From an uncultured Lachnospiraceae bacterium (GTDB lineage Bacteria > Bacillota > Clostridia > Lachnospirales > Lachnospiraceae), in contig CANQEL010000004.1 in NCBI GenBank assembly GCA_947594855.1, positions 110,845-174,844 of the forward strand: 64,000 nt of DNA. Direction: 5' to 3'. The stretch's first letter is position 1, and each line of letters begins with the position of its first letter. The notes under the pieces were generated by a model. It was not told where the DNA came from. It saw nothing but the letters and a program-made list of their open reading frames with translations, and did not search any database. A program made the translations under genes and the position numbers. Shown here piece by piece: positions 11,455 to 58,519 of the stretch.

Positions 11455-13518
11455 ATGGGAAAGAGAAGATTTCAAAAATTTGTGGCGTGTTTATTAATTT
11501 CTGCAATGACTGCAGGTATATTTAATTCTTACACTGCAGAGGCGTATACAGTTAAAAACAATACATCAGAGTACATATACAGCAAAGCGGAAACAATATA
11601 TCCGGTTACTGCAGGACAGATATACAGTCTTTATAGCAGTTCGGGTAAATATGTAAAATTAAAATCCGGTAATTATGATAAATGGATTGACAGGATAGAA
11701 GTACCTGAATATGCGCTGGATTTTTACGATACATTGTCTGGTGAATCTTTTTGGACAAATGATGCCAATTTTTCTGAAAACGGAAACACATGGATTGAAA
11801 ATGGCAGGATTAATGCAATTAAATTTTCGGATGTTAAAGTACAGGGTACGGAAGAAGAGTTCAAATCACGGATGAAAGACGAGGCTTTTCTGATGCGTGC
11901 AGTTTTTGATGCATTTGACAGGGACCATCCGGAGATATTCTGGCTTGATGGTACTACTACATATCAGTATTATGCGACAAAGACGACTAATGGAAATACT
12001 GTTACATATGATGCAAAGCTGTATTTGGTTCTGAAGAATGATACTTATGATATTAGAAGACAGGAGTATCAGTCAGCCGGCGCTATAAAGGCGGGAATTT
12101 CACAAAGAAATAGTGCTGTTAATGACATTCTTTCTGAAATCAGCAGTTCGGATTCCATATATCAGAAAATAAAATATTTTAATAACAGGCTTACAAAGAA
12201 CAATATGTATAATACCGAAGTTTCAAAAGGAAACAGTAATGCAGCATCCGAATATGCATGGGAATGTATAAGTGCGCTTTTGGGAAATACAGGCAGTGAA
12301 GGACCGGTATGCGAGGGATATGCGCGTGCTTTTAAGGTTTTATGCGACAGGTCAGGAATTGGCTGTACTCTTGTAGATGGAAGCGCAGTGAACAGTTACG
12401 GGAATCCGGGAGACCATATGTGGAACTATGTGAAAATAGGCAGTGCATGGTATGCTGCAGATGTTACATGGAATGACCCTGTAGTTCAAAATGTTAATAA
12501 GGCAGACTCAGGTTTTGAACGTGAGGATTATTTATGTGTTGGTTCAGATACAGTAATAAGTAAAATGAAATTTATTGATTCTCATCCTGTTACAAATTCT
12601 GCGTCTAATGGCGGTGTTGAATTTATAAACGGACCTGTTCTTAGTAAAACAGAATATGACCCTCTGACATCACCTGAACCAACGGTGGAACCGACAGCGG
12701 AGCCAACAGCAAAACCAACAGCGGAGCCAACAGCAAAACCAACAGCAGAACCAACGGCGAAGCCAACATCAGAACCAACGGCGGAGCCAACGACAGAACC
12801 GACGGCGGAGCCAACAGCAGAACCGACAGCGGAGCCAACAGCAGAGCCAACGGCGGAGCCGACGTCAGGGCCGACGTCAGAACCGACAGCAGAGCCAACA
12901 TTAGAACCAACGTCAGAGCCAACGGCGGAACCGACAGCGGAACCGACAGCGGAGCCGACGTCAGAGCCAACATCGGAACCGACAGCGGAACCAACGACAG
13001 AACCGGCGTCAGAGCCAACATCGGAACCGACCGCAGAGCCGTCAGGCGTAAATCCTCCGGTTTCGGTACCGGAAAATGAAGCTCTTCCGGCAGGAAGCAT
13101 ATTGGAGTCAGATGGTAACAGATATATGGTAACATCATCAGATGCACAGAATAGAACCGTGGAATTTATAGGTATTAAAGGCAACAGGAGCACTGTGTCG
13201 ATACCGGATATTATCGTGTCAGATAATATTGCATATTATGTAACGTCTATATCGGATAAAGCATTAAAAGGCAATAAGAAGTTAAAGAAGGTAGTAATCG
13301 GCAGTAATATATCCTCTGTAGGTAAACAGGCGTTCCTAAATTGCAGGAAATTAAAAAAGATAACTATATTATCGCTAAATATAAAAATAAAGAAAAAAGC
13401 ATTTTATGGAATTTACGGTAAAGCAAAAATATATATTCCGGCAGAAAAATTTGCAGCATACAGGAAAATGCTTAAGAAATCGAAAATTAAAGCCGGTGTA
13501 AAGATTAAAAAGAAGTGA
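11455..13518 (+). CDS. Secreted transglutaminase-like protein with Pro-Thr-Glu spacer and BspA-like C-terminus
   Basis: Exported 687-aa protein. An N-terminal signal peptide (KRRFQKF, a hydrophobic core, cleavage near TAEA) precedes a transglutaminase-like domain with the catalytic triad order: Cys in GPVCEGYARAF, His in GDHMWNYV and Asp in AADVTWNDP (about residues 285-345). About 120 residues of PT(A/S/T)EPT repeats follow as an extended spacer. The C-terminal ~150 aa resemble a BspA-like leucine-rich repeat (GKQAFLNCRKLKKITI, then KKKAFYGI). No LPXTG or anchor is seen, so it may be released or wall-associated. Whether it acts as protease, cross-linker or amidase cannot be told. Confidence 0.82.
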   Translation: MGKRRFQKFVACLLISAMTAGIFNSYTAEAYTVKNNTSEYIYSKAETIYPVTAGQIYSLYSSSGKYVKLKSGNYDKWIDRIEVPEYALDFYDTLSGESFWTNDANFSENGNTWIENGRINAIKFSDVKVQGTEEEFKSRMKDEAFLMRAVFDAFDRDHPEIFWLDGTTTYQYYATKTTNGNTVTYDAKLYLVLKNDTYDIRRQEYQSAGAIKAGISQRNSAVNDILSEISSSDSIYQKIKYFNNRLTKNNMYNTEVSKGNSNAASEYAWECISALLGNTGSEGPVCEGYARAFKVLCDRSGIGCTLVDGSAVNSYGNPGDHMWNYVKIGSAWYAADVTWNDPVVQNVNKADSGFEREDYLCVGSDTVISKMKFIDSHPVTNSASNGGVEFINGPVLSKTEYDPLTSPEPTVEPTAEPTAKPTAEPTAKPTAEPTAKPTSEPTAEPTTEPTAEPTAEPTAEPTAEPTAEPTSGPTSEPTAEPTLEPTSEPTAEPTAEPTAEPTSEPTSEPTAEPTTEPASEPTSEPTAEPSGVNPPVSVPENEALPAGSILESDGNRYMVTSSDAQNRTVEFIGIKGNRSTVSIPDIIVSDNIAYYVTSISDKALKGNKKLKKVVIGSNISSVGKQAFLNCRKLKKITILSLNIKIKKKAFYGIYGKAKIYIPAEKFAAYRKMLKKSKIKAGVKIKKK
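12673..13041 (+). repeat. Degenerate tandem repeat encoding Pro-Thr-Ala/Ser-Glu units
   Basis: About 370 bp of 6/12-bp repeats of the type GAACCGACAGCG and GAGCCAACGTCA encode the PT-rich spacer. Long opposite-strand ORFs here (12582..13193 and 12641..13147) are products of the repeat. Likely prone to copy-number change. Confidence 0.9.
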
Positions 13519-30681: not shown

Positions 30682-30876
30682 TTTTATATAATTTTATGCC
30701 AAAATGGTGTAGTAAATGGTGTAGTAAATAATTTTCAATTTATAACAGAAAAATACCTTGAAAAGAATACAAAAGTAAACAAAAGCTCTACTATAGAAAT
30801 GTGGAGATTAAGAGAACAGGCAAAAATGGCAGCAGAAGAAAATATTATGTTGGATATAGTAAACAGGTATAGATAG
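30682..30876 (+). other. Short open frame, possible gene remnant
   Basis: A 64-codon frame without stops ends at 30876; from its only ATG (30799) it reads MWRLREQAKMAAEENIMLDI... for 25 aa, and the codons before it also look protein-like (FQFITEKYLEKNTK). It is preceded by a tandem duplication of AATGGTGTAGTA. No family recognised and no good ribosome binding site; it may be the tail of a lost gene at the border of the accessory island. Confidence 0.25.
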
Positions 30877-31397: not shown

Positions 31398-32327
31398 GTG
31401 ATTATTAATATTCAGGATGATATTTTAAAAATACAAGCTTTGGGATTGCTTGACCGCATACTGGTAGATAAAACCACAAAGCGGAATATAATGTGGGCTA
31501 CGGATGCATATAGTGTTTTGGGAACTAAATATGAGCGGAATGAGGAGATAACTTCAGACTTGATAACAGGCAGAAATTCAGGAGTTATTAAGACCCGCGC
31601 CCGTAAAGCAATGGAGCAGCAAACAGTGAGAACCAGACAACATGCGGAAGTGTTCACTCCTTTGTGGGTTTGCAGTAAAATGAATAACCATACGGATGAA
31701 ATATGGTTTGGTCGGAAAGATATTTTTTTTCGAGATGGGATACCAACGGAACGGGTTGTATTTCAAAAAGAAGATGGATGGAAACGGTATGTGGATTCCC
31801 GGAGACTGGAGATTACTTGCGGTGAAGCACCTTATCTTGTCAGCCGATACGACGTGGAAACGGGGGAGGCGGTTTCCATTAAAAATCGTATTGGAATATT
31901 AGATCGAAAACTTCGCGTAGTAAATGAAAATACAGAAACGGAAGAAAGTTGGATGGAATGGACAGAACGAGCTTTTCAAGCGACGTATGGGTATGAGTTT
32001 CAGGGAGATAATCTGTTAATAGCTCGTGTGAATCTTTTAATGACGTTTGAAGAATATATGCAGGAACGATGGCAGCGTAAACCTACAATTGAAGAATATC
32101 GAAAGGTAATTAATATTATTTCATGGAATATCTGGCAGATGGATGGTCTGACTGGAACGATACCTTATAGTACGATAGAGGAAAAGTATCATCAAATGGA
32201 TTTGTTGGAGCTGCTGGGAATTAATACAGAGAACAAAGAGGGAAACAAACAGCCACCTTGTCGTATTTTCGATTGGCGCGGAAAAGGTTGTAGTATAGAG
32301 TTTTTATCATTACAAAGGAAGGGATAA
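31398..32327 (+). CDS. R-M system methyltransferase subunit carrying SAM-binding half (motifs X and I)
   Basis: First gene of a three-gene restriction-modification cluster. The 309-aa protein has HAEVFTPLWVCSKMN (motif X, like FTP..V..KM of N6-adenine MTases) at about residue 80. EITCGEAPYLVSRYD occupies the place of SAM motif I at about residue 137, and RIGILDRKLRVVN follows. No NPPY is present here; it is in the next gene 6 bp on, so the two probably make one enzyme. GTG start after AGAGGGG. This family is usually called 'restriction endonuclease subunit M'. Confidence 0.78.
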   Translation: MIINIQDDILKIQALGLLDRILVDKTTKRNIMWATDAYSVLGTKYERNEEITSDLITGRNSGVIKTRARKAMEQQTVRTRQHAEVFTPLWVCSKMNNHTDEIWFGRKDIFFRDGIPTERVVFQKEDGWKRYVDSRRLEITCGEAPYLVSRYDVETGEAVSIKNRIGILDRKLRVVNENTETEESWMEWTERAFQATYGYEFQGDNLLIARVNLLMTFEEYMQERWQRKPTIEEYRKVINIISWNIWQMDGLTGTIPYSTIEEKYHQMDLLELLGINTENKEGNKQPPCRIFDWRGKGCSIEFLSLQRKG

Positions 32328-32333
32328 CGTGCT

Positions 32334-33362
32334 ATGAAATTTGATTTTATTATTGGTAATCCACCATATCAGGAAGAAACTCTTGGTGACAATAAAGGGT
32401 ATGCACCACCTATTTATCATAAGTTTTTAGAAAATGCTTACGAAATTGCAGATGTTGTAGAGATGATTCATCCGGCAAGATTTTTGTTTAATGCAGGAAG
32501 TACACCTAAAGAGTGGAATAGGAAAATGCTTGAGGATGAGCACTTAAAGGTTCTTTATTATGAACAGGATAGTAGTAAAGTTTTTACCAATACAGATATC
32601 AAGGGCGGAGTGGCAATTACTTATCATGACAAAAATAAGAGCTTTGGAGCAATAAATGTATTTTCTATTTATCAACAGTTAACTTCAATTATGGATAAAG
32701 TAGCACCGGCAAATGAAAAAGAGAGTATTATGAGTATTATATATTTGCAAAATTGCTTTAACCTTAAAGTTTTATATGAAAAACATCCAGAATTAAGAAA
32801 TGTTATTGGAAGTGGTGGAAAGGATAAGAGATTTAGAAATAATATTTTTGAAAAAGTGCCATTATTTACAGAGCAAAAGCAAAATGAAGATGATGTATCT
32901 GTAATTGGAGTTATTAATAATAAGAGAATATGGAAATATTGTCCATTGGAATATATAAATACGCAGCATGAAAATTTATTCAAGTATAAAGTACTTGTTG
33001 TTCGTGTAAATGGTAATGGGACATTGGGTGAGACATTGAGCACTCCTATAGTTGCAAAATCTAATGAAGGATATACACAAACATTTATTGGAATAGGAGC
33101 TTTTGATAGTCTAAATGAAGCAGAGAATGCATTGAAGTATATAAAATCGAAGTTCTTACGAACAATGCTAGGTATACTTAAAATTACGCAAGATAATAAT
33201 CGTGATACTTGGAGAATGGTACCGATTCAAAATTTTACAGATGTGTCGGACATTGACTGGACAAAATCCGTTAAAGATATTGACAGACAGCTTTATGCAA
33301 AATACGGATTAGACGAAAATGAAATTAACTTCATTGAATCCCATGTAAAGGAGATGGAATGA
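32334..33362 (+). CDS. Eco57I-like N6-adenine methyltransferase subunit (NPPY half)
   Basis: Catalytic half of the split MTase. It opens with FDFIIGNPPYQEET, the NPPY motif IV that binds the flipped adenine, then MIHPARFLFNAGS and a TDIKGGVAITY segment typical of Eco57I/type-IIG-like methylases. The C-terminal part (about residues 170-340) probably forms a target recognition domain. It lies 6 bp after the motif I subunit and 1 bp before the helicase gene. Intact, 342 aa, low GC unlike the ICE. Confidence 0.82.
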   Translation: MKFDFIIGNPPYQEETLGDNKGYAPPIYHKFLENAYEIADVVEMIHPARFLFNAGSTPKEWNRKMLEDEHLKVLYYEQDSSKVFTNTDIKGGVAITYHDKNKSFGAINVFSIYQQLTSIMDKVAPANEKESIMSIIYLQNCFNLKVLYEKHPELRNVIGSGGKDKRFRNNIFEKVPLFTEQKQNEDDVSVIGVINNKRIWKYCPLEYINTQHENLFKYKVLVVRVNGNGTLGETLSTPIVAKSNEGYTQTFIGIGAFDSLNEAENALKYIKSKFLRTMLGILKITQDNNRDTWRMVPIQNFTDVSDIDWTKSVKDIDRQLYAKYGLDENEINFIESHVKEME

Positions 33363-33363
33363 T

Positions 33364-34263
33364 ATGAGTGAAACGACAAAGATTAGGTCTTTTACCCATG
33401 TGGTTCCGATGATTTATGCTTATAATACTCCAGGCGTAACTTATCATGATGGATGGACAAAGATTGGGTATACAGAAAAACAGACAGTAACGAAACGAAT
33501 CAATCAACAGTTGCATACTGCCGGAGTGAAATGGGAATTGGCATGGCAGGATAATGCGATGTATAAAGATGGTTCCGGGGAGTATTTTACGGATAGGGAA
33601 TTTCATACTTATCTGGAGTCTGATGCTGGGATAGAGCGTGAACCTGGAACTGAATGGTTTAAGATTAGCGGCTTGGATTCTCAAAATTATTTTAACCGCT
33701 TTTGCAGACGGCAAAGTGCAGAAAAGACTGAGAAAAAATGTACCTATGTTTTGCGAAAAGAGCAGCAGGAAGCTGTAAATATAACAAAGAAATATTTTGA
33801 AAATGGTGGAACAGAATTTTTATGGAATGCGAAGCCGAGATTTGGAAAAACTTTGGCAGCTTATGATTTACTATGTGATATGGGATTCTCAAAAGTGCTT
33901 ATAGTTACAAACAGACCCAGCATTGCGAATTCATGGGCGGATGATTTCCATAAGTTTATCGGATGGAAACATCAATTATGTTTTGTTTCGGATACAGATG
34001 CTCTGAGAGATAAATCGGGTGTCATGACTAGAAATGAATATACTAAAGCTATGCTGCCTCTTGACGATTACGAAGTAAAAGGAATGGTTGCATTTGAATC
34101 GCTGCAGGGTTTAAAAGGTTCCGTTTATTTTGGCGGCGACTATGATAAATTAAAGTGGATTAGCGATTTGGAGTTTGATTTGCTGATTGTGGATGATGAG
34201 GGTGTTATAATAGGGACAAATCAGAAGAAACCTAGTAAAATCAAGGGGTTGCAGATGATTTAG
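33364..34263 (+). pseudogene. Truncated GIY-YIG-like / SF2 helicase restriction subunit
   Basis: Restriction/translocation subunit of the cluster, cut short. The N-terminus resembles GIY-YIG-like T5orf172 nucleases (PMIYAYNTPGV...WTKIGYTEK..). A DEAD/DEAH helicase follows: Walker A AKPRFGKTLAAYDLL (about residue 165), motif Ia VLIVTNRPSIANSW, and LEFDLLIVDDEGV where VDEAHEG is expected. After that the sequence turns unlike a helicase (IIGTNQKKPSKIKG) and stops. All later helicase motifs (III-VI) are missing. The break coincides with the start of the GC-richer ICE, so the gene was probably split by insertion; the other half should lie beyond the ICE's right end. Confidence 0.75.
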
Positions 34264-34836: not shown

Positions 34837-34895
34837 GTATGAGGCTTAAATACAAAGATAAAGGAGCTGGTTACATGAAAAGGAGGACATTCAGG

Positions 34896-35825
34896 ATGGA
34901 TAATAAAATAGAAGTGATTGGGATTGACCACGGCTGGTCGGGCATGAAAACGGTGCATGAGGTATTTACATCAGGCTGCAAGGAAATCAGCACGGAGCCG
35001 GCATTTACAGAGAACCTGCTGGAGTTTGGCGGGAAATATTATAAGATTGGCAGCAGGCGTCTTGAAGTAAAGGACACAAAGGTAACGGATGAAAATTACT
35101 ATATGCTGACACTGGCGGCGGTGGCAAAGGAGTTAAAGATCAGGGGAAGAAAGACAGCTCATGTGCTGTTGGCGGTGGGGTTGCCGCTGACAAGGTTCGG
35201 GGACGAGAAGAAAGAGTTTGTTTCTTACCTGTCAAGGGAAAAGGAAGTCTCCTTTACCTTTGAGAAAGAGAAGTACCATATTTTTATTGAAAATGTGTGT
35301 GTCTATCCCCAGTGCTATGCGGCAGTGATTGACCGGATTGACAAGTTCCCGGAGAAGCAGCTTGTGGTGGACATTGGTTCATGGACGGTGGACATTATGC
35401 CGATTATCGGCCATCTGCCGGATGAATCAGCATGTGTGACACAGCCGCATGGGATTATTACCTGCATCCAGCAGATTAACAAGGAGTGTGTGAGGCAGTT
35501 AAACGCAGAGGTGGACGAGTATGATATTCAGAAAGTCATGGTAAGCGGCGGGGGAGACCTGCCGGAGAAGTACCGGGAGATTATCATTAAGGAAATCCGT
35601 GGTTACTGCCAGCAGATATACCATAACATCCGGGAGCTTGGCTACAACATGGACCTGACGCAGATTATCTTTGTGGGCGGCGGCGCCGGGGTGATGAAAC
35701 GCTTTGGCGGACTGGACCAGAAGAACATCAGCTATATTGAGGATGTGAAGGCAAACGCAAAGGGATATGAAATGCTTGGGAACGCATATCTGGCGCAGTC
35801 GCAGAGGAAACGTAAGATTGGATAG
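34896..35825 (+). CDS. ParM/StbA-like actin-family segregation protein
   Basis: Actin-like ATPase that would form filaments to segregate circular DNA. The 309-aa protein has phosphate-1-like IGIDHGWSGMKTV, phosphate-2-like LVVDIGSWTVDIM and adenosine-motif IIFVGGGAGVMKRF, in the order of ParM/Alp proteins. I start at ATG 34896, 9 nt after AGGAGG; the track begins at 34818, and ATG 34875 is another option. The small gene 11 bp downstream looks like the ParR adaptor. A ParM system in an ICE suggests a stabilised circular form. Confidence 0.82.
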   Translation: MDNKIEVIGIDHGWSGMKTVHEVFTSGCKEISTEPAFTENLLEFGGKYYKIGSRRLEVKDTKVTDENYYMLTLAAVAKELKIRGRKTAHVLLAVGLPLTRFGDEKKEFVSYLSREKEVSFTFEKEKYHIFIENVCVYPQCYAAVIDRIDKFPEKQLVVDIGSWTVDIMPIIGHLPDESACVTQPHGIITCIQQINKECVRQLNAEVDEYDIQKVMVSGGGDLPEKYREIIIKEIRGYCQQIYHNIRELGYNMDLTQIIFVGGGAGVMKRFGGLDQKNISYIEDVKANAKGYEMLGNAYLAQSQRKRKIG

Positions 35826-35836
35826 GGGGGATTGCA

Positions 35837-36280
35837 ATGGCTTATGGAGAGCTGTTCCGGCATTTTACCATACGCTTTTCCTTGAAAAAGGGGCAGCATG
35901 TCAGGCTGCTTCAGAAGTTTGAGGATAATAAGCTGATTGGGGCTAAGACGAAAAACCAGGTGGTCATGGATGCGCTGGAAATGTACTTTGACGCACTGGA
36001 GGTAGGGACCGGAAAAGAGAAAAAGGAAGAAATAACGCCTGCTTATTTTGAAAAAAGACTGTCTGATATGAAAACAGAAATCAAGGCGGAGCTCCTGCAG
36101 GAAATTCTCCGTACTGTTTTGGGGAATGTCATAACCGGCCAGGCGGCTGTGATGCCCCCTCACACCAGAGAACCAGAGAGTGTGGATATGGGGGAAGAAA
36201 ATATGGCAGGGGATGGCATGGCGGATATCAGTGGGATGCCGGATGTTATGGATAAAATCATGGGATGGAGTGAAAATTAG
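35837..36280 (+). CDS. ParR-like adaptor protein
   Basis: Probable DNA-binding partner of the ParM-like protein. The 147-aa protein opens with a strand-helix-helix pattern (FRHFTIRFSLKKGQHVRLLQKFEDNK, then TKNQVVMDALEMYFDAL) fitting ribbon-helix-helix ParR proteins; the acidic C-terminus (DMGEENMAGDGM) would contact ParM. Assigned from size, pattern and the 11-bp spacing behind parM. A ParR-binding parC-like site was not located. Confidence 0.65.
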   Translation: MAYGELFRHFTIRFSLKKGQHVRLLQKFEDNKLIGAKTKNQVVMDALEMYFDALEVGTGKEKKEEITPAYFEKRLSDMKTEIKAELLQEILRTVLGNVITGQAAVMPPHTREPESVDMGEENMAGDGMADISGMPDVMDKIMGWSEN

Positions 36281-36609: not shown

Positions 36610-36743
36610 CTGCGCAAATGCCGGGCAGGCCCGGTATCTGTGCCGGCAGGGAATTATCCGCAGGAAACAACGTATCGAATGGGGCTTACTGCGAAAAATG
36701 CTGTTGCGGCATTTTCTCGCAGGGCTTCGGAATGGAGGAATAT

Positions 36744-39700
36744 ATGACAAAAAAGAAATTGAAAAGGGTAATGGCTCTTGCAATGGCTTTTGTCCTGACG
36801 GTGGGGGCTGTCATTCCCACCGCCGCCTATGCCAATGCAACAGGGCCGGATGCAAGTGTAACGGCAGGCGGCAGCAGCGTCAGTGACGGTGACAGCGGGG
36901 GCAGCCAGACGGAAGCGGTTCAGGAGCCGGTGCTTTATAACGAAACGGACAGGCCAGATTTGGAGCCGGCGGAGATTGCGGCGGCAGAGGACATTATCGT
37001 GGCTGCCGGCTACGGGTTTGACGTGGAGAAGTCCTTTGATGGGATTTCCTATGATGAAAAGGCTGTCAGTGTCAGCTACTATGCAGACAAAAGCTCTTTT
37101 GATGGGGATAAGCCGGGAGATTACGAAACTTTCTATAAGGTGGAGCCGATAAGCGGAAAAAGCCCTTATCTTATCTGCCGTATGATTTCCGTGCGTGAGC
37201 CGGAGGCTGCGGTAGAGGAAAGCATGGAATCCGGGGACGGACAGCAGGAAAAAGAAGATGGGGACAGCGGGGAAGAAGAGCCTGCCCCCGGAGAGGGGAG
37301 TGTTTCCCCATCGGATGGCAGGCCGGCGCTCCTGTCAGAGGGAGAGATGGAAACCTTCGGTGCGGGGGACACCATGATGGTCCGCATGGCGTCTGCACCG
37401 GTGTTAAAGGCGGCAGAGAAATCCTCTGGCAAGGACAGCATGAAGGTGTCATGCAGCGGGTATGCCTCATACTGCGGGCACAGGATGGGAATTAAGTACA
37501 TCTCGGAGTCCGGGGATTACCACAACCATCTGGTGTACTGCCTGAACCTGCACAAGAATACCACGAATGGGAAGGTGGATGCGTCTGCCTCTAAGAGCAG
37601 CATTAAGCCGGAAATCACGTTCTGCATGGTAAACGGCGCCAGGACGCTGAATGGGAAATGCCACAACAGCAAGTATTCCGCGGGTTCTGCCTCAGCCGAT
37701 TACTTCCTTACCGGTGCGGCGGTCCATGTACTGAACGGGGAAGTAAAGTTAAGCTACTACAATGATGGCAGCAGCGTCTATAAGAAAATAGCTGCCCTTG
37801 TATCAGATGCAAAAAATTATGATGAGGATGAGTATGATGCGGCAACCGGGACTACAAAGTCCATCACCTATACGATTTCGCCAAAGAGGACCGAGTGGCA
37901 GGATATGGGGGACGGGCTGTACCGTTCCAAGGAGAAGTTTGTCCGCACAAAAACCGGGAGCATTACCAATGTCTCCTATAAAATCACGGGGCAGCCGGGC
38001 GGATTGACGGTAGGCGAGTTAAAAACGGATGCCAGTGAGATTGAGGACGGTTCTGATTTGAAAAAGTATGACATCTGTGTGGCACAGACAGACGCAGACA
38101 AGCCTTCCTCTAACTTTTACCTGTATTGTAACGGGGAGGCAATGAAAAAAATACTTGCGGTGGAGAGCACCGTCAAGCTGACGGCAACCGCCAAATCAAA
38201 GGAAAAGGGCGGAAGGAAATGGACGCCGACAGTAGTGTCACAGCAGAAGATTACGTTTCTGGAGGAGTTTGAGCCGGGGACTGTGACCGCCAGCGTTAAA
38301 GTCACTTCCAAATTTAAGGAGGGAAAATTTGAACTGAGAAAGACAGATGCATACAGCGGTGTACCAGTAGCGGGTGCAACGTATTACCTGTATGAAGATG
38401 AAGAGTGTACCGACCTGTTGTGCAAACTTGGAAAAACAGACTTGGATGGGCGTGTGCTGTCAGGTAAAGAAATGCTGACACAAAGCATTTATTATCTGAA
38501 AGAGATAAAAGCAGCACAGGGATATTTAAGGGATGAAACCATATATCCCGTAGGTTTGGAATACTTTACCCTCTATGACAGCGATGGGAAAGTCACGCAG
38601 CAGGGGAAAACCATGCCGGTTGTGGAATACCCGGATAAGGTAGGCGTCATGGTGGCAAAGACGGACGCAGAATCAAAGAACATCGTAAAGGGTGCCGGGT
38701 TTGCGGTTTTTACCGATGCCGGATGCACGCAGCGTGTTTCTGTGGAGGGCGATGGCAAGGAGGAAGTGCCGGTATTCTATTATGATGAGGATTTAGGGAC
38801 GGCGGCTTCTGAAAAATTCGTAAAAATGCAGGATAAATATTATGTGAAAGAGGTTGTCATACCGGATGGGTACCGGGATGACGGCAAGGTGTGGGAAGTA
38901 ACACCCGATTATGGGGAGATTTCGGATTTCAGTGCAGAGAATACGCCAATCCGCTGTGACGTGTCAGCGAAAAAAGAGGATAAGGAAACCGGGGCAGAGC
39001 CGCAGGGGGATGCAAAACTGTCCGGCGCCACTTACGGGCTGTATGCGGCGGAAACCATTGCCTACCCGGATGGCAGGGGAACCGTGGCCTATGTGGGGGA
39101 TGACAACATTGCCAGCACGCAGGGGACGGATTTTGTGTCAACGGGTGTCCCGGCGGAGAAGGATGCCCTGCTTGCCACGGTAAAGACAGGGGAGCAGGGG
39201 GAGTTTCATTTCGGCAACCTGTACTTCGGCAGTTATTATATCAGGGAGATTGAGGCAAGTGAGGGGTACCTGCTGGATGAAACCATTTACCCGGTGGAAT
39301 TTAGGAAAGCGGAAAATGTCCATCAGGATATTTCCTTAAAAAGCACGGTAACGGAAATGGTAAAAAAACAGGCCTTTGGGATTATCAAGGTATCTACTGA
39401 CGGCGCGTCAGCGGAGCCGGATTATGTAGAGGGTGCGGAATTTACCGTAAAGTTACAGTCGGATATTGATAAAAACGGATGGGATGCTGCGAAAACCTGT
39501 GACGTGCTTGTGACCGATGAAAAGGGGTATGCACTTTCCAAAGAGCTGCCTTATGGGACGTACCTGGTAAGGGAAACAAAGACACCAAAGGATTTGTATA
39601 AGACAAAAGATTTTACCGTACAGGTTACGGAAGATTCCAGAGAGCCGCAGCAGTGGAGGGTGTTCAATGACGGGCCTTTTAAGGCATATATCCGTATCGT

Positions 39701-41522
39701 GAAAAAGGATGCGGAAAACGGGAACACAATCCTGCTTCCCGGCGTGACGTTTAAGATAAAAAATACAGAAACGGATGAGTATGTGGAACAGAAAATCGGC
39801 GATAAGAAAATCAGCGAATTTACCACGGATGAGACCGGAACCATCACCACACCGTTACAGTTGAAGTACGGAAGCTATGCGGTGGAGGAGATTACCGCAC
39901 CGGAGGGATATTTGATTACGGATGAAAGTTTTCCGCTGGAAGTTACCACGGACGGGATGTTGAAGGTTTCGGAAGATATAGACGGCGATCCGGTCATTGA
40001 GGTAGCCATTGAGAACCAGCCCGTCAAGGGCAGCATTTCCATTAAAAAGTCAGGGGAAGTATTAACTTCCGTGGCATATGACACCATTGTGGACCGTATC
40101 CTCAGTGAGCTTTCCGATGAAAACCGGAGCGTGGATTTCACTTATGGGGAACAGCCGCTTGGCGGGGCAGTATTTAATATTATTGCAATAGAAGATATTT
40201 ACACCCCGGACCACCAGACGGATGGAGATGGGAACCGCATACTGGAAGTGATTGGCGGTGTGCCGGCAAGCAAGGGTGCCATTGTTGCAACGCTGGCCAC
40301 AGATGAAAAGGGGGAGGCTTCCCTTGACAATCTTCCGCTTGGGAAATATCAGGTGGTGGAGGTGCAGCCGCCGTCAGGCTTTGCCATCTGTGAGGAACCA
40401 AAGGAGGTTACCCTTGATTATGCCGATGAGCATACGGAAGTGGTTTTCGGGGAGGCAGAGTTTGTCAATGCGAGGGTAAAACCGGAACTTTCTCTGATTA
40501 AGACGGATGGTGTGACCACCTATCCGGTAGCCGGCGCCACTTATGGCATTTATACGAAAGAGAATATTTTGAGTGCAGCGGGGGAGGTGCTTGTAAAGGC
40601 AGATGACCTTGTGGATACGGCTGTGACGGATGAAAACGGGAAAGCAGTGTTTGAGGCAGACCTGCCGCTTGGCCTGTATTATGTGAAGGAAGTGGAGTCC
40701 CCGGCGGGGTATCTGTTAGATGAAACGGTGTATGACGTGGATTTCTCCTATACGCAGGAAATGGCTGCCACGCCAACCGTGGCAAAAGAACTGGAGATGA
40801 AAGACACGCCGATTATTGTGGAAGTGTCCAAAACGGACATTACCACGGGGAAAGAGCTGCCGGGGGCAACGCTGGAGATTATTGATTCCAATGGGGATGT
40901 GTATGCCTCATGGAAAACGGACGGGAAGCCTTACCGTCTGGAGGCAGTCCCGGCAGGGAAATATACCCTGCGGGAGACAGCGGCGCCATATGGCTACCTG
41001 ATTGCGAATGAAGTAGAGTTTACCGTGGAGGAGACAGGGGAGATTCAGAAAGTTGCCATGTCCGATGAAAGGGTAAAGGGAAAAATCGTAATCTACAAAA
41101 CATGCAGCAAGACGAAAAAGCCGTTAAAGGGCGTCACGTTTGAACTCCGTAACAAAGAGGGGAAGAAGCTGGACACGCTGGTAACGGACAAGACCGGCTA
41201 TGCGGAAACAGGGCTTCTGGACATCTGCACCTATCATGAGGATGGCAGCTTTGGGGAGGACATTCCGTATTATATCGTGGAAACAAAGGCTGCGGAGGGG
41301 TATATCCTCGACGATACCCCGCATGAGGTACTGCTGCAGTATGATGACAGTGCGACAGAGACGGTGGTTTATACACTGAAGCTGAAGAATAAACCAAACA
41401 AACCCAAATTGCCACAGACGGGCGGCAACTACCATCCGTGGATGTTTGCCGCCCTCGGTGGTGCGTGCATTGCCGGCGGTTTGCTGTATGGGAGGAAACG
41501 AAAGAGGAAAGTGCGTAAATAA
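36744..41522 (+). CDS. LPXTG-anchored surface protein with about eight SpaA/Cna-B repeats
   Basis: Sortase-anchored adhesin-like protein of 1592 aa. I start at ATG 36744 (GGAGGA upstream; MTKKKLKRVMALAMAF signal peptide), not the track's 36618. After an acidic low-complexity linker there is a thioester-domain-like region (HRMGIKYI...HLVYCLNLHKN). About eight SpaA/Cna-B domains follow from residue ~525 to 1540, each with a lysine strand (FELRKTDAYSG, VSKTDITTGK, IVIYKTCSKTK) and an E-box (YYLKEI, YYVKEVESP, YYIVETKAAEGY), the pairs that form isopeptide bonds. The end is LPQTG, one membrane helix and RKRKRK. Likely helps mating-pair contact or host binding. Confidence 0.92.
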   Translation: MTKKKLKRVMALAMAFVLTVGAVIPTAAYANATGPDASVTAGGSSVSDGDSGGSQTEAVQEPVLYNETDRPDLEPAEIAAAEDIIVAAGYGFDVEKSFDGISYDEKAVSVSYYADKSSFDGDKPGDYETFYKVEPISGKSPYLICRMISVREPEAAVEESMESGDGQQEKEDGDSGEEEPAPGEGSVSPSDGRPALLSEGEMETFGAGDTMMVRMASAPVLKAAEKSSGKDSMKVSCSGYASYCGHRMGIKYISESGDYHNHLVYCLNLHKNTTNGKVDASASKSSIKPEITFCMVNGARTLNGKCHNSKYSAGSASADYFLTGAAVHVLNGEVKLSYYNDGSSVYKKIAALVSDAKNYDEDEYDAATGTTKSITYTISPKRTEWQDMGDGLYRSKEKFVRTKTGSITNVSYKITGQPGGLTVGELKTDASEIEDGSDLKKYDICVAQTDADKPSSNFYLYCNGEAMKKILAVESTVKLTATAKSKEKGGRKWTPTVVSQQKITFLEEFEPGTVTASVKVTSKFKEGKFELRKTDAYSGVPVAGATYYLYEDEECTDLLCKLGKTDLDGRVLSGKEMLTQSIYYLKEIKAAQGYLRDETIYPVGLEYFTLYDSDGKVTQQGKTMPVVEYPDKVGVMVAKTDAESKNIVKGAGFAVFTDAGCTQRVSVEGDGKEEVPVFYYDEDLGTAASEKFVKMQDKYYVKEVVIPDGYRDDGKVWEVTPDYGEISDFSAENTPIRCDVSAKKEDKETGAEPQGDAKLSGATYGLYAAETIAYPDGRGTVAYVGDDNIASTQGTDFVSTGVPAEKDALLATVKTGEQGEFHFGNLYFGSYYIREIEASEGYLLDETIYPVEFRKAENVHQDISLKSTVTEMVKKQAFGIIKVSTDGASAEPDYVEGAEFTVKLQSDIDKNGWDAAKTCDVLVTDEKGYALSKELPYGTYLVRETKTPKDLYKTKDFTVQVTEDSREPQQWRVFNDGPFKAYIRIVKKDAENGNTILLPGVTFKIKNTETDEYVEQKIGDKKISEFTTDETGTITTPLQLKYGSYAVEEITAPEGYLITDESFPLEVTTDGMLKVSEDIDGDPVIEVAIENQPVKGSISIKKSGEVLTSVAYDTIVDRILSELSDENRSVDFTYGEQPLGGAVFNIIAIEDIYTPDHQTDGDGNRILEVIGGVPASKGAIVATLATDEKGEASLDNLPLGKYQVVEVQPPSGFAICEEPKEVTLDYADEHTEVVFGEAEFVNARVKPELSLIKTDGVTTYPVAGATYGIYTKENILSAAGEVLVKADDLVDTAVTDENGKAVFEADLPLGLYYVKEVESPAGYLLDETVYDVDFSYTQEMAATPTVAKELEMKDTPIIVEVSKTDITTGKELPGATLEIIDSNGDVYASWKTDGKPYRLEAVPAGKYTLRETAAPYGYLIANEVEFTVEETGEIQKVAMSDERVKGKIVIYKTCSKTKKPLKGVTFELRNKEGKKLDTLVTDKTGYAETGLLDICTYHEDGSFGEDIPYYIVETKAAEGYILDDTPHEVLLQYDDSATETVVYTLKLKNKPNKPKLPQTGGNYHPWMFAALGGACIAGGLLYGRKRKRKVRK

Positions 41523-42746: not shown

Positions 42747-43272
42747 TTTTACACTGGAGGTTGTGTCTGTCAGGCTTGTCCGGGATGCCCCCATCCTGTC
42801 GGAAATAAAAGTCGATACCCCGGAAGACGCCATCCGGTTAGTGGGGCGGGAATTGTGTGACATGGATCGGGAAGTTATCTGCGTCATCAACCTGAAGGCA
42901 GACAATACGCCGATTAACTGCCACTTTGCCAGTGTCGGTGCATTGGATTATGCAATGGTACATCCGCGGGAGCTGCTGAAATCCGGCATTCTGTCCAATG
43001 CCTCAAGGATGATTCTGGCACACAATCACCCTTCGGGAAATCTCCTGCCATCGGGGACAGACGTGCGTATGACAGACCGGATACAGCAGGTATGTGGGCT
43101 TGTGGGGATTCCGTTGCTGGACCATGTGATTGTCGGCGGGGATAACAGCATGTATTTCAGTTTCAGGGAAAAAGGGCTGGTAAAAAATCCAAGTGTGGAG
43201 TACCAGTCTGACTACCGGCGGCTGGATTGGGACAGCCCCGCAGGGGTGGCGGAGAGGGGAGGCAGGAGATGA
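42730..43272 (+). CDS. RadC-like JAB/MPN domain protein
   Basis: The 180-aa protein is the JAB domain of RadC: SVGALDYAMVHPRELLKSGIL, then the metal motif ILAHNHPSGNLLPSGTDVRMTD (HNHPSG with downstream Asp), then LLDHVIVGG. It lacks the N-terminal helix-hairpin-helix part of chromosomal RadC, as in plasmid and ICE versions. Its role is unclear; suggestions include DNA processing or anti-defence. Its stop overlaps the next start (ATGA). Confidence 0.9.
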   Translation: MERESDFTLEVVSVRLVRDAPILSEIKVDTPEDAIRLVGRELCDMDREVICVINLKADNTPINCHFASVGALDYAMVHPRELLKSGILSNASRMILAHNHPSGNLLPSGTDVRMTDRIQQVCGLVGIPLLDHVIVGGDNSMYFSFREKGLVKNPSVEYQSDYRRLDWDSPAGVAERGGRR

Positions 43273-44228
43273 GGTTTACAGCGGACGAGCTGGCGCTTGC
43301 CAAGCAGGTTGATTTGTGCAGGGTGGCAGAGCATCTGGGTTATACCGTAAAAAGGATTGGGAACTACCATACGTTAAAGGAAATGGATTCCATCCGTATT
43401 TATGGCAGGAGCCACTGGTGCCGTTTTTCAAGGCGGTATGACAAAGGGGAAAACGGCGGCAGCCAGATTGACTTCTTACGGGTGTTTGCAGGCATGGACG
43501 TAAAAGAGGCGGTGTTCTGGCTGCTGGATTTTGCCGGGTACCGGAGGGAGGAAAGTGTCAGGAACATTCAGAACCTTGCCCCGGCCAGGGAGAAAGAGGA
43601 AAAGAAAAAACCGTTTGTACTGCCGGAGTTTGCCGGCAGCAATGTCTATCTGTACCGTTATCTGGAGCATGAGCGGGGGATTGCCCGCCCGGTCATCGAC
43701 TTCTTTGTGAAGAAAGGAATTTTGTATGAGGCGAAGAATTACCACAATATTGTGTTTGTGGGAACGGATGCAGAGGGCGTGCCGAGGTTTGCCAGCATGC
43801 GGGGTGTTTTTGATAAGGATGGGAAAGGCTTCAAGTGTGACGTGGCAGGAAATGACAAGCGGTATGGATTCCATCTTTACTGCCGTGGCAGTGGGGAAGT
43901 GATTGTGTTTGAGGCGGCAATCGACCTGATGAGCCATATCACGATGTTCCCGAAGCACAGGGCAAGCATGGTGGCGCTTGGGATGTTAGCGGATGCGCCG
44001 CTGGAAACCTTTCTTGCAGAACACCCGGAGACGGAAAAAATAAGCTTCTGTCTGGACAATGATGGGCCGGGCAGGAAGGCGGCGGAAAGCCTGAAAGAAA
44101 AATATCAGGGCAAAGGCTATGAAACGGAGATTTTCCTGCCCCCGGAACCATATAAGGATTTCAACCAGTGGAATGTGGAATTGAAAAAGGCGCAGGAGCA
44201 GGAAAAAATCCGGGAAATGGCAAGGTGA
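43269..44228 (+). CDS. DUF3991/Toprim primase-like protein
   Basis: A 319-aa protein with a DnaG-like layout: an N-terminal region (VDLCRVAEHLGYTVKRIGNYHTLKEMDSIRI, then GENGGSQIDFLRVFAGMDVKEAV), a DUF3991 middle, and a Toprim domain with EAAIDLMSH and FCLDNDGPGRKAAESL, the metal-binding Glu and DxD. It probably primes the transferred or replicating strand. I start at ATG 43269, overlapping the radC stop as ATGA. The stop codon touches the first iteron of the repeat array. Confidence 0.85.
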   Translation: MRFTADELALAKQVDLCRVAEHLGYTVKRIGNYHTLKEMDSIRIYGRSHWCRFSRRYDKGENGGSQIDFLRVFAGMDVKEAVFWLLDFAGYRREESVRNIQNLAPAREKEEKKKPFVLPEFAGSNVYLYRYLEHERGIARPVIDFFVKKGILYEAKNYHNIVFVGTDAEGVPRFASMRGVFDKDGKGFKCDVAGNDKRYGFHLYCRGSGEVIVFEAAIDLMSHITMFPKHRASMVALGMLADAPLETFLAEHPETEKISFCLDNDGPGRKAAESLKEKYQGKGYETEIFLPPEPYKDFNQWNVELKKAQEQEKIREMAR

Positions 44229-44492
44229 TGTAGGAATGGAGTAGAAACGGTGTAGGTTTGCAGATTTTCGGTGTAGGAATGATGTAGCAATGGTGTAGGC
44301 TCTGAAAAAGGGCTTTTTCTGACGGTGTAGGAATGGTGTAGAAACGGTGTAGGCTTGCGGATTTTCGGTGTAGGAATGATGTAGCAATGGTGTAGGCTCT
44401 GCGAAAGGGCTTTTTTTGGCGGTGTAGGAATGGTGTGGGAACGGTGTAGGCTTACGGATTTTTGGTGTGGGAATGATGTAGCAATGGTGTAG
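44227..44492. repeat. 97-bp tandem repeat (x2.75) of phased GGTGTAG iterons
   Basis: Three copies of a 97-bp unit, the last incomplete, start at the stop codon of the primase-like gene. Each unit has six GGTGTAG-like heptamers (variants GATGTAG, GGTGTGG, GGAGTAG) at steps of 11, 11, 21, 11, 11 and 32 bp, so every copy lies on nearly the same helix face. In unit 2 they start at 44324, 44335, 44346, 44367, 44378 and 44389. Units 1-2 and 2-3 are separated by an AAAGGGCTTT-type hairpin. This looks like binding sites for a replication or transfer initiator. Confidence 0.9.
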
Positions 44493-44528: not shown

Positions 44529-44620
44529 GGGGTTTTAGGGGATTTTCCCCTAACCAGGGAGCCGGGCTTTGTGCCGGCTGGCATTTTGTGACACAAAATG
44601 CGTATCTGGCGAAACCTTTG
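44529..44620. other. Candidate oriT
   Basis: Immediately after the iteron array come a hairpin (GGTT..AGGGG / CCCCT-AACC, 44531-44555), a second one (GCCGGGC...GCCGGC, 44561-44578), and a perfect 10-bp inverted repeat GCATTTTGTG-A-CACAAAATGC (44581-44601) followed by GTATCTGGCG. A palindrome followed by a YATC-TG-like sequence resembles MOBP nick regions, and MobC and relaxase genes lie 0.7-1 kb downstream. The 534 bp between 44228 and 44763 hold no gene. Confidence 0.55.
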
Positions 44621-44762
44621 GGAGTGAAAGGGAGGCAAAGGTTTCGGTGCAGGAGAGGATTTGCAGCAGGCAGGAAACGGGTAAGGAAAAGTACCGGCTG
44701 CTGACGTAAAGCGCAGGGAAATATTTTATTATGAAAAAACAAAACAGGAGGTGCAGGGGAGC

Positions 44763-45299
44763 ATGGGAATGGAAGTGCTGGAAGTAAATACGCCCGGTGA
44801 GCTGATTATGTGGCTTCATCTGGCAGAATCAGAAATTAGCATGAAACAGGACGGGGCAGAAATTATTCTGGATTATATGGCGGAGCATAACATGGCACTG
44901 GCTGTCCGCAATCAGGAGCTGGTGGTAAAAGATATGGGGGAGGAATCCCCGGAGTATCAGCCGTATTCCATAGATGATGCCATCCACGATGTCTGTGAGT
45001 GGAATCTGGAGCTGGCAGATAAGATGGAGGACGGCATGAAAAATCCTAATAATCAGGCGGAATATAACCAGTTCAGCAATGCGCATGATATTCTGAAACA
45101 GCAGGAGGAAGTGCTGGATGGGCTGTACCGGCAGACAAAGTATGAGCAGATTGCAGTGGAATGTGCATTGGAGATAATTACCGCTACATTTGGAAGTGTG
45201 CCGGAGGGTGTGCAGGAGAAAATGGAGGCATACCGAAAAGGCGGAGCCGGGCAGACAGGGAGACCAGAGGGGATGCAGGCGCAGGAAAGGATGAGGTAG
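44763..45299 (+). CDS. Unrecognised protein upstream of mobC
   Basis: A 178-aa acidic, helical, cytosolic protein (MEVLEVNTPGELIMWLHLAESE, then DDAIHDVCEWNLELADKMEDGMKN, FSNAHDILKQQEEVLDGLYRQTKYEQIAVE). No family recognised. I prefer ATG 44763 over the track's GTG 44751, which lies within the CAGGAGGTG site; ATG 44769 is also possible. Its stop is directly followed by the mobC start, so it is probably co-translated with the relaxosome genes. Confidence 0.55.
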   Translation: MGMEVLEVNTPGELIMWLHLAESEISMKQDGAEIILDYMAEHNMALAVRNQELVVKDMGEESPEYQPYSIDDAIHDVCEWNLELADKMEDGMKNPNNQAEYNQFSNAHDILKQQEEVLDGLYRQTKYEQIAVECALEIITATFGSVPEGVQEKMEAYRKGGAGQTGRPEGMQAQERMR

Positions 45300-45623
45300 A
45301 TGGCAAAGGAGGTTGTAAAGCATTTCCGCCTGACTGCCCATGATGCGGGGGTTTTCTCTGATAAGGCGAAAGAGGCAGGGATGAAAGAGGCCGAGTATTT
45401 CCGCCTTCTGATAACGCAGGAGCCAAACGATTACCCGGAAGTGAGGCAGGGGTTAAAAGCACTTATCAATGAAGTGAACCGGATCGGCGTAAACATCAAT
45501 GAGATTGTCCATAACAACAATTCGGGGCTGTACCGGGAGTCGGATAAAATCCGCCTGGTCGCCTATATGCGGAAGCTGAATGAGGAAATGGAAAGGGTGG
45601 TGGCAGTCCTTGGCTATCACTAA
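45300..45623 (+). CDS. mobC: MobC-like relaxosome accessory protein
   Basis: DNA-binding helper of the relaxase at oriT. The 107-aa protein has a ribbon-helix-helix-like N-terminus (KHFRLTAHDAGVFSDKAKEAGMKEAEYFRLLI) and the MobC signature INEVNRIGVNINEIVHNNNSG. It follows the preceding gene with no gap and overlaps the relaxase start by 14 bp, as in mobC-relaxase operons. Confidence 0.9.
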   Translation: MAKEVVKHFRLTAHDAGVFSDKAKEAGMKEAEYFRLLITQEPNDYPEVRQGLKALINEVNRIGVNINEIVHNNNSGLYRESDKIRLVAYMRKLNEEMERVVAVLGYH

Positions 45624-47061
45624 GATTTTAACCATCAATGACAGCGGCGTGAAGTTTGCGGGGAAACATCTGGAGCAGGCGGTTTCCTATATTCTTGACC
45701 GGGAGAAAACGCAGGGCGGCAGGCTGGTGACGGGAATCAACTGCCAGCCGGGGAAAGCCTATGCGCAGATGGCGGCGACGAAACAGAAGTATGGAAAGAC
45801 AGATAAAAGGCAGGGCTACCATCTTATCATTTCCTTTGAGGCGGGTGAGGTCACACCGGATACCGCCTTTGAGATTATACGGAGGTTTGCGGGGGAATAT
45901 CTTGGGCAGGAGTATGAGGCTGTCCTTGCCGTCCATGACAACACTGCCCATGTCCACGGGCATATCATATTTAACAGCGTGAATTATTTAAGCGGCAGGA
46001 AATACCGTTATGAAAAGGGGGACTGGGCAAAAAAGATACAGCCCGTCACGAACCGTCTTTGTGAGGAATACGGGCTTTCCACCATAGAGATAGAGGAACA
46101 CGGCAGGAAACAAAATGAGAGGTACAAGGACTGGAATGAGTTTCGGGACGGGAAATTCATCTGGCGGGAAATGATACAGAAGGATGTGGATGCCTGTATC
46201 ATGCAGGCGGATTCCTTTGAGGAGTTTCTGGACCTGATGGTGGAAAAGGGCTATGACGTCAAGCAGAATAAGTATCTGGCGGTAAGGCCTAAGGGAATGC
46301 AGCGGTTCTGCCGGTGCAGATCCATGGGGGAGAATTATACAGAGGAAAGAATCAGGGAGAGAATCTGGCTGGAGAATCTGGAAAGCTATGCAAAACGGAA
46401 CCGTGAAAAAAATTCCTATGCCGTAGAGCCGCCAAAGGATGAATTTTTACGCAGGACAAAGCTGACAGGCATACAGAAAACCTATTATGCGAAGATATGT
46501 CGCCTGCGCCATCTGGAACGGCTGCCCTACAGTAAGGCATGGGAGTACCGGGAGGAAATCCGCAAAATGCAGGAAGTCCATGAAAAATACCTTTTCCTTG
46601 TTAAGAATGGCATCCATTCCCTTATGGAGTTAACTGCCGTCCGTGAGAACCTTGCGGAAAAGGCGGCAGAGTGCCGGAAAGAGAGGCGGGAAGTGTACCG
46701 GGAGAAGAAACAGATGGAGCCGTTATTTTCCGTGGCAGATAAGCTGGCGGAATTAGCCCCGGCAGAAAAAAGTTATCAGGCAGGGGATGAATTTTTTGAG
46801 AAGGAACACCGCCGGTATCAGGCGTTGGGGGAACAGTTACAGAGTGAGGGATATTCACTGGAAGAAATGGAAATTCTCCGTAAAAAATATAAAGATAAAA
46901 GCAGCGGCATTTACCAGAGGCAGAGGGAAATCAGCCGGAGGTTAAAAATGTCAGAAGAAATGATAACGGAATTTACCGAAAGTCTGGAACGGGCAAAAGA
47001 AAGGCAGGAGAGGGAACCGGCAGACAGGAAAAAAGAGAAAGAAAATTTGAACAGGAATTAG
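45610..47061 (+). CDS. MOBP-type relaxase/mobilization nuclease
   Basis: Nicks oriT and leads the strand into the recipient. The N-terminal relaxase domain has AVSYILDREKT, a GYHLIISFEAGEV strand, and the metal-binding motif HVHGHIIFNSVN with its His triad near residue 113, typical of the Relaxase (PF03432) family. The long charged C-terminus (to residue 483) is coiled-coil-like and ends in a basic tail. I take TTG 45610 (reads (M)AITKILTIND, like homologues) over the track's 45580, which lies deep inside mobC. The catalytic tyrosine was not fixed by eye. Confidence 0.9.
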   Translation: MAITKILTINDSGVKFAGKHLEQAVSYILDREKTQGGRLVTGINCQPGKAYAQMAATKQKYGKTDKRQGYHLIISFEAGEVTPDTAFEIIRRFAGEYLGQEYEAVLAVHDNTAHVHGHIIFNSVNYLSGRKYRYEKGDWAKKIQPVTNRLCEEYGLSTIEIEEHGRKQNERYKDWNEFRDGKFIWREMIQKDVDACIMQADSFEEFLDLMVEKGYDVKQNKYLAVRPKGMQRFCRCRSMGENYTEERIRERIWLENLESYAKRNREKNSYAVEPPKDEFLRRTKLTGIQKTYYAKICRLRHLERLPYSKAWEYREEIRKMQEVHEKYLFLVKNGIHSLMELTAVRENLAEKAAECRKERREVYREKKQMEPLFSVADKLAELAPAEKSYQAGDEFFEKEHRRYQALGEQLQSEGYSLEEMEILRKKYKDKSSGIYQRQREISRRLKMSEEMITEFTESLERAKERQEREPADRKKEKENLNRN

Positions 47062-57518: not shown

Positions 57519-57538
57519 AATTTAGTTTGGAGGCTAAT

Positions 57539-58519
57539 ATGCAGGATTTAACACACATCAGCCTGTTTAGCGGCATTGGCGGGCTTGACCTTGCGGCGGA
57601 GGCGGCGGGGTTTACCACCGTTGCACAGTGCGAATGGGCTGATTTTCAGAATGAGGTGTTACAGAAACACTGGAAGGATGTGCCCAGATTTAAGGACATC
57701 AGGGATTTGAACAAGGAGGAGTTTTATGCGAGAACAAAACAACAAAATGTCACACTCATCTCAGGGGGATTCCCCTGCCAGCCGTTTTCCTTTGCCGGGA
57801 AGCGCAGGGGCTTTGAAGATGACCGTTACCTCTGGCCGGAAATGCTTAGAGTCATCAGAGAGTTCTCCCCCGCTTGGGTGCTTGGAGAAAATGTTGCTGG
57901 ATTCCTCAACATGGGGCTCGAAAAGACGGTATCTGATCTGGAAGGAGCAGGCTATGAAGTCCGGGCCTTCGTACTACCTGCTCTCGCCGTCGGTGCGTGG
58001 CATGAGAGGAAACGGGTATTCATTGCCGGACACTTATCCGACGCCGGTGGCTTCCATTGGGAAGATGGATGTTTCCACTGCCCTCATTGGCAGGATGAAG
58101 AAAACGGGGACATTAAAGAAACTCAACTCGACGGGGACGCTCTGGCAGCCCAACCTGCAGATGCGGGTGTTCTGCACCCCGGAGGTAATGGAGCAGACGG
58201 GGACGGAGTTTCACGAACCGGAGACGGAGGAGCAGAAAGAGCTCTTTACGGAGGTTGTGGAGATTTCCATGAAACGGCACAAAATCAACCCGGACTGGGT
58301 GGAATGGCTGATGGGCTTCCCCATTGGATGGACGGACACAGGCTGTGGGAACAGGAGCCGGAGGGGGTAAGCCGGATTACGGAAGCGAACCCACTTTGGG
58401 GCAGCCGCATGTTTTCGCTTGGCAATGCGGTGGTGCCGCAGCAGGCCTATCCGGTACTGAAATGTATTGCAGATATTGAAACGGGAAGATGCAGGTCTTT
58501 CTGTCCGGAAAAGAAATAG
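57539..58519 (+). CDS. dcm: C5-cytosine DNA methyltransferase
   Basis: Methylates cytosine in a specific DNA site; in an ICE probably protects the element from restriction. Start ATG 57539 after TTTGGAGG (the track's TTG 57527 overlaps that site). Motif I is [18 protein letters not shown], motif IV is [19 protein letters not shown] with the catalytic Cys, motif VI is [10 protein letters not shown], motif VIII is [12 protein letters not shown], and the end is [16 protein letters not shown] (motif X). The stretch between about residues 170 and 285 is Gly/Asp-rich and shares its DNA with a long ORF in another frame. Confidence 0.93.
57726..58370 (+). CDS. Out-of-frame ORF inside dcm, possible overlapping gene
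   Basis: A 214-codon ORF in another plus-strand frame, wholly inside dcm. It starts 6 nt after AAGGAGG, an internal Shine-Dalgarno. Its product looks protein-like: [59 protein letters not shown], and [23 protein letters not shown] recall similar blocks in proteins encoded with phage and ICE dcm genes. Dual coding is therefore likely, but function is unknown and translation unproven. Confidence 0.5.

Follow-up and report, generated by a model that had tools for sequence, protein, structure and literature searches.

An iteron array beside oriT as the probable centromere of an actin-like partition system in ICEs of gut Clostridia

Introduction

On plasmids (R1, pB171, pSK41 and the pCW3 families of Clostridium perfringens), type II ParMRC partition systems combine an actin-like ParM, a small ribbon-helix-helix (RHH) protein, ParR, encoded downstream, and repeated sites; in each of their many sequence families, ParR and parC match (PMC9426499). 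ParR of R1, pSK41 and C. perfringens binds direct repeats, and on C. perfringens plasmids its family-specific recognition sets incompatibility; the position of parC upstream of parM is usual rather than defining (PMC9426499).

Partition has also been described next to oriT. The srpMRC system of SXT/R391 ICEs is an ICE-borne ParMRC with its centromere region in the oriT-containing intergenic region, just upstream of srpM (PMC4489591). In plasmid R388, the stability protein StbA of the stbABC operon binds the stbDRs, two sets of five 9-bp repeats with 2-bp spacers, and its binding in this oriT-containing region suppresses conjugation (PMC3098194).

The locus described here, from an ICE family of gut Clostridia, shares with plasmid ParMRC the actin-like ParM, the small predicted RHH protein behind it, the repeated sites and the diversity of families. 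It differs in being ICE-borne, in its two-triplet 32-bp geometry, often with inverted half-sites, and in the array lying about 8 kb or more from parMR, at oriT, with none upstream of parM. In arrangement it is like srpMRC in having direct and inverted repeats, but these differ between elements, whereas srpMRC is strictly conserved in SXT/R391. R388 likewise has two sets of repeats with an 11-bp period in its oriT region, bound by a stability protein; its stb system has no actin-like motor, and its repeats flank the promoter of their own operon.

The original prediction had placed the locus in a Tn1549-like ICE. The CD1110-family VirB4, as part of a CD1110-type T4SS with MobC and a MobP-type relaxase, is indeed common to both. 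The mob/oriT region is not shared, so the label fits only loosely: the relaxase is 36.6% identical over half its length, the upstream genes differ, and in Tn1549 (examined as the vanB element of an E. faecium plasmid) we detected no array before mobC and no ParM. A literature search, with most subscription journals outside its reach, returned no published description of this family's array.

Results

Eighteen phased iterons adjoin an oriT-like block

The window, the whole stretch of 64,000 nucleotides analysed here, contains the following mobilisation region:

43272..44228, plus strand: Toprim_2/DUF3991 primase-like gene (Pfam DUF3991 1.5e-15, Toprim_2 1.4e-13)
44227..44492, plus strand: iteron array, proposed parC-like centromere, 18 GGTGTAG-like heptamers in six triplets
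44227-44255, 44270-44298, 44324-44352, 44367-44395, 44421-44449, 44464-44492: the triplets, with heptamers starting at 44227, 44238, 44249; 44270, 44281, 44292; 44324, 44335, 44346; 44367, 44378, 44389; 44421, 44432, 44443; 44464, 44475, 44486
44529..44610, plus strand: oriT-like block, beginning with GGGGTTTTAGGGG, conserved among relatives
44581-44590/44592-44601, plus strand: oriT hairpin, within the block
44600-44610, plus strand: conserved GCGTATCTGGC, probable nic region, within the block
44610..44646, plus strand: second inverted repeat, CGAAACCTTTG/CAAAGGTTTCG, with 11-nt arms
44766..45299, plus strand: orf177, conserved acidic protein of unknown function, missing from some relatives
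45300..45623, plus strand: MobC/NikA-like relaxosome protein (Pfam NikA-like 5.7e-8, MobC 2.2e-7)
45580..47061, plus strand: MobP-type relaxase (Pfam Relaxase 9.3e-37; NCBIfam TraI_MobP_relax 1e-16, under the profile's cut-off)

The array consists of 2.74 copies of a 97-bp unit. Its 18 heptamers, each within one mismatch of GGTGTAG, share one orientation and follow a recurring 11-11-21-11-11-32 spacing, just as first described; TRF agrees (period 97, 2.7 copies, 92% match) and gives the array the top score in the window, 444. The triplets succeed each other at 43 and 54 bp, and the autocorrelation peaks (97, 43, 54, 11, 108, 86 and 32) all lie near multiples of about 10.7 bp.

The window contains 13 exact copies of GGTGTAG where 3.7 are expected, far more than chance would give, and 11 of these lie inside the array. 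The extended 18-mer (up to two mismatches) is confined to this one locus of the host genome, bar one weaker two-mismatch site elsewhere on the contig, which rules out a dispersed host repeat. A universal GGTGTAG element was rejected as well, as a scan of genomes and viral contigs returned mainly plain 11-bp tandem repeats from unrelated phyla. Searched as DNA against PLSDB, the array region had no match. Over 8 kb the window is identical to CANQUM010000003.1, a public Clostridia MAG contig.

The first heptamer overlaps the TGA stop (44226-44228) of the Toprim/DUF3991 gene, and 36 bp separate the array end from GGGGTTTTAGGGG at 44529, so that the placement first proposed, from the stop of a primase-like gene to the side of an oriT-like palindrome, is confirmed. 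The oriT-like block, orf177, MobC and the relaxase follow in this order.

While the array varies between elements, the adjoining oriT is constant: in a comparison of 24 elements, 22 have the block GGGGTTTTAGGGG ... CTAAC-AG ... hairpin ... GCGTATCT-GC. In its hairpin the outer arms co-vary (CCAG/CTGG, CTAG/CTAG, CAAG/CTTG, CAGG/CCTG), which supports a real hairpin, and its TATCTG|GC resembles the IncP nic site, TATCCTG|C.

Several other features of the window were recorded. Two GGTGTAG copies form a chance-like 12-bp tandem at 30702-30729, downstream of metA, and metA is directly followed by a restriction-modification-like gene cluster (31398-34263), close to the element's left end. The interval from parR to the mobilisation genes encodes a surface protein of 1634 aa (36618-41522), LPXTG-like and with repeated SpaA-like domains. 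A gene at 57527-58519 resembles a C5 DNA methylase, and a 24/48-bp tandem repeat at 12676-13040 is probably coding.

Related elements keep the place and geometry of the array and change its sequence

A search of about 1,100 genomes yielded 30 related loci, all from the same bacterial family; most of their relaxases are 45-60% identical. The twenty loci examined first, to a depth of about 5 kb, keep the order (DUF5688)-RadC-Toprim-intergenic-(orf177)-MobC-relaxase. The intergenic slot holds a short-iteron array in 29 of the 30 relatives. On the single-contig chromosome of G282, the second element (L277) has oriT with neither array nor parM nearby. In the first element of G711 (L270), an IS cuts a GGGGGC-type array after its third unit; the second element of that genome carries an intact GGTGG-type array.

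Iteron letters differ completely between elements. Among the 22 spellings are GGTGTAG in the window and, in relatives, GGGGGCAGAAAGCGCCCCC, GGTAGTAAAAAGTCCTACC, GAGTGATAAAAAGTCACTC, TGGATTAAACCTTAATCCA, CATGGGGAAAT and AAGTAGGAAACCTACTTAG. Many relatives have iterons made of two half-sites flanking an A-rich spacer; those of the window and of the GGTGG type (L271) are direct repeats. Asked whether the array is missing or scrambled in relatives, as first proposed, the comparison gives an unexpected result: place and geometry are kept, the sequence is not.

In most relatives the array consists of two triplets of sites of about 19 bp; the sites are spaced at 32 bp, and the distance from one triplet to the next is 43, 54 or 64 bp. 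This common layout, 32-32-(43, 54 or 64)-32-32, amounts to 3, 4, 5 and 6 helical turns. We searched the 22 distinct arrays for six-site motifs, with dinucleotide shuffles for comparison, and motif content exceeded every shuffle in all 22, so that phased repeats able to serve as a putative parC are found in each distinct type. Spacings of 31-33 bp account for 68 of 110, or 3.1 per array against 0.4 in shuffles, and no shuffle reached four of them. Fit to the common layout is poor in L208, L212, L213 and L268 and partial in L214, L216, L217 and L274.

Genomes with two or three elements mostly hold different types (G110, G002, G122, G711, G636), and the two elements of G101 have identical iterons and ParR strand. 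Shared types being rare anyway, no avoidance of equal types in one cell can be read from this.

Three Enterococcus plasmids with a 50% identical relaxase hold a piece of the family: the Toprim-orf177-mobC-relaxase segment occurs on plasmids of Enterococcus gallinarum, E. faecalis and E. faecium (L321 18673-19020; L322). On pEG81-1, which carries optrA and fexA, array and oriT could be read, the array in the exact 32-32-64-32-32 layout. ParM had no match on any Enterococcus plasmid, and fragmented copies there still keep the array.

Repeats of other kinds were met in other settings. A GGTGTAGGG pattern of Prevotellaceae/Bacteroidales and phage contigs (L066, L092, L094, L063, L122, L169), in which three sites at 11 bp are followed, about 90 bp further along, by two more, appears to be a separate iteron element. 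A different element has palindromic TTCTGCAxATGCAGAA repeats within one of its ORFs, not far from a ParA-like gene (L282 11082-11289).

A parM gene and a putative parR lie upstream of the array

Two further genes of the window bear on the array:

34872..35825, plus strand: ParM-like actin-fold ATPase (Pfam ALP_N 3.7e-11, ParM_N 1.1e-3)
35837..36280, plus strand: ParR-like protein of 147 aa, directly behind parM, predicted ribbon-helix-helix, proposed array binder

The open frame of ParM could begin at 34818. Besides Pfam ALP_N, a PDB match to Alp12 (4apw, 4.2e-6) marks it as an actin-like ATPase of the kind that defines ParMRC; the NCBIfam ParM profile scores 6.9e-8, under its cut-off.

ParR is a predicted assignment, based on gene position, an alignment pattern and a low-confidence model (pTM 0.31 for the whole, 0.56 for the N-terminal part). 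The alignment reads strand-R-x-N...NPQH...KSKNQFIIDA, with a conserved C-terminal LA..W helix. The model places helices at 19-31 and 39-55 after a strand-like stretch, with FRHFTIRFS as predicted DNA-contact strand; as a monomer model cannot show the paired strand, we infer the remainder of the RHH reading. Profile and fold searches, Foldseek on models included, gave no significant match, with ParR of pB171 at E 7.8.

In the window the pair lies about 8 kb upstream of the array. The pair recurs in relatives upstream of the mobilisation genes, mostly at a distance of about 10 kb and at most about 24 kb; the ParR of relatives is mostly 22-34% and their ParM mostly 47-65% identical to those of the window. 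ParM is a pseudogene in G164, and the co-occurrence of array and ParM could be followed in full outside L209 and L215, where contigs end. Additional ParM loci in G122, G110 and G282 lie on contigs that stop short or have no oriT close by. No element examined has an iteron cluster upstream of or near parM, the usual place of parC.

By eye, TTGACA-type repeats can be read upstream of parM on the R. albus plasmid pRUMAL02 (L324 2640-2730), and GAAATCA-type repeats between parR and mobC on Monoglobus plasmid 12 (L325 5282-5457). These are possible intermediate arrangements.

Iterons covary with the predicted contact strand of ParR

All ten pairs of elements with the same iterons have an identical nine-residue ParR strand, even where the rest of ParR is only 73-76% identical (75% in L202/L207, 76% in L211/L273). 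In close pairs with switched iterons the surroundings are preserved (ParM 86-91%, MobC 80-99%, Toprim 72-91%), but ParR falls to 41-65%. The values for ParM, Toprim, MobC and ParR are 89, 89, 86 and 52% in L202/L271, 91, 91, 99 and 65% in L214/L216, and 86, 72, 90 and 41% in L205/L278.

When each iteron type is represented by a single element, iteron similarity is correlated with the ParR strand (rho 0.26, p 0.001) but not with the rest of ParR (rho 0.11, p 0.13) or MobC (rho 0.13, p 0.09). It also correlates with orf177 (rho 0.37, p 0.001, 16 elements) and, more weakly, with DUF5688 (rho 0.24, p 0.014). Whole-set Mantel tests are uninformative because related elements share everything, and this shared history lets several proteins split same- from different-iteron pairs almost equally well. 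Similar ParR strands also occur with different iterons (L213/L217, L200/L268), and, with no relative more than 60% identical to the window, the pairing of GGTGTAG with its ParR counts as one observation.

Sequence comparison thus makes ParR the best candidate for the array binder. It was among the binders first suggested, and the array tracks it; MobC, the 178-aa protein (orf177) and the primase-like protein, proposed alongside, are less likely. MobC is 99% identical in L214/L216 while the iterons differ. Both elements of G101 have array, ParM and ParR without Toprim and without orf177, and tblastn did not find orf177 in six array-bearing elements (L208, L212, L215, L268, L274, L275), so that neither protein can be the general binder.

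Discussion

We now propose, as a reading of the sequences that we regard as likely, that a type II ParMRC partition system has this array as its centromere (parC), which has been relocated to the side of oriT and has come to differ in specificity between elements. ParR, encoded behind parM 8 kb upstream, would bind the heptamers on one face of the DNA, at 18 sites in six groups, and wrap or stack the array into a segrosome. Its conserved C-terminal helix would cap ParM filaments, which would then separate excised, oriT-replicated copies of the element. Because the array lies not ahead of parM but within 36 bp of oriT, the ParR complex probably also touches relaxosome assembly or transfer. And with a ParR/iteron pair that varies from element to element, no element would segregate any but its own copies.

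That a dedicated, phased protein-binding array lies beside oriT, as first suggested, is very likely; that it is an iteron set for initiating replication or transfer is less so. Of the other readings, an unlikely one that survives best is that ParR or another small element protein binds the array mainly for transfer control, as StbA does, at an accessory relaxosome site or a vertical/horizontal switch with little role in segregation. The distance of 36 bp to the oriT block speaks for it, as do the lack of another array near parM, the suppression of conjugation by StbA at the stbDRs of R388 (PMC3098194) and the stimulation of the relaxase TraI by ParM/ParR of R1 (PMC4949242). The linked ParM favours active partition, however, and since oriT and MobC stay conserved across array switches, the array appears dispensable for relaxase specificity.

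It is improbable that orf177 binds the array to form a dedicated relaxosome or replication complex. The gene adjoins oriT, evolves fast (about 30% identity between elements) and has the correlation with iteron similarity given above, which may reflect physical linkage to the array. Against it stand its absence from array-bearing elements (with Toprim in G101, alone in four more), the 68-74% and 81% identity that it retains where iterons switched, and the lack of a recognised DNA-binding domain in profile scans.

Iterons are typical of plasmid origins, and this array abuts the Toprim gene, entering its 3' end in several relatives. Even so, an iteron replication origin recognised by either a Rep or the Toprim/DUF3991 protein is a very improbable reading: none of the scanned proteins was recognised as a Rep initiator, with the element's right end falling outside the contig; both G101 elements carry the array but lack Toprim; and two iteron switches leave Toprim at 89-91% identity. 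ICEs of this type are generally taken to use oriT and the relaxase for their replication, a mode discussed in PMC4489591.

A neutral tandem repeat or an RNA-level element (terminator or hairpin array) is hardly credible: slippage generates tandem repeats and the palindromic units of many relatives could fold as RNA hairpins, but the geometry is kept across many unrelated spellings, the direct repeats of the window and the GGTGG type cannot form such hairpins, and an Rfam search with the array gave no match.

Returning to the partition reading, we can tentatively extend it to the whole family, though the wider picture is open to considerable doubt. The gut-Clostridia ICEs may possess a hypervariable oriT-side centromere in which 20 or more ParR/iteron specificities share a single conserved scaffold and change independently of the other parts of the element. 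It might set which related ICEs share a cell and couple segregation of the excised circle to transfer.

ICEs were long regarded as having no need of a partition system. The present family appears to carry an actin-like one, with its centromere at oriT, whose protein/DNA code appears to have changed repeatedly while the geometry was kept; a piece of it, array included, is also present on an optrA/fexA resistance plasmid of Enterococcus. Its approximately 20 natural ParR/iteron pairs are a resource for decoding RHH specificity. Altogether, the family could help to show whether ICEs fall into incompatibility groups and whether segregation and conjugation share one complex.
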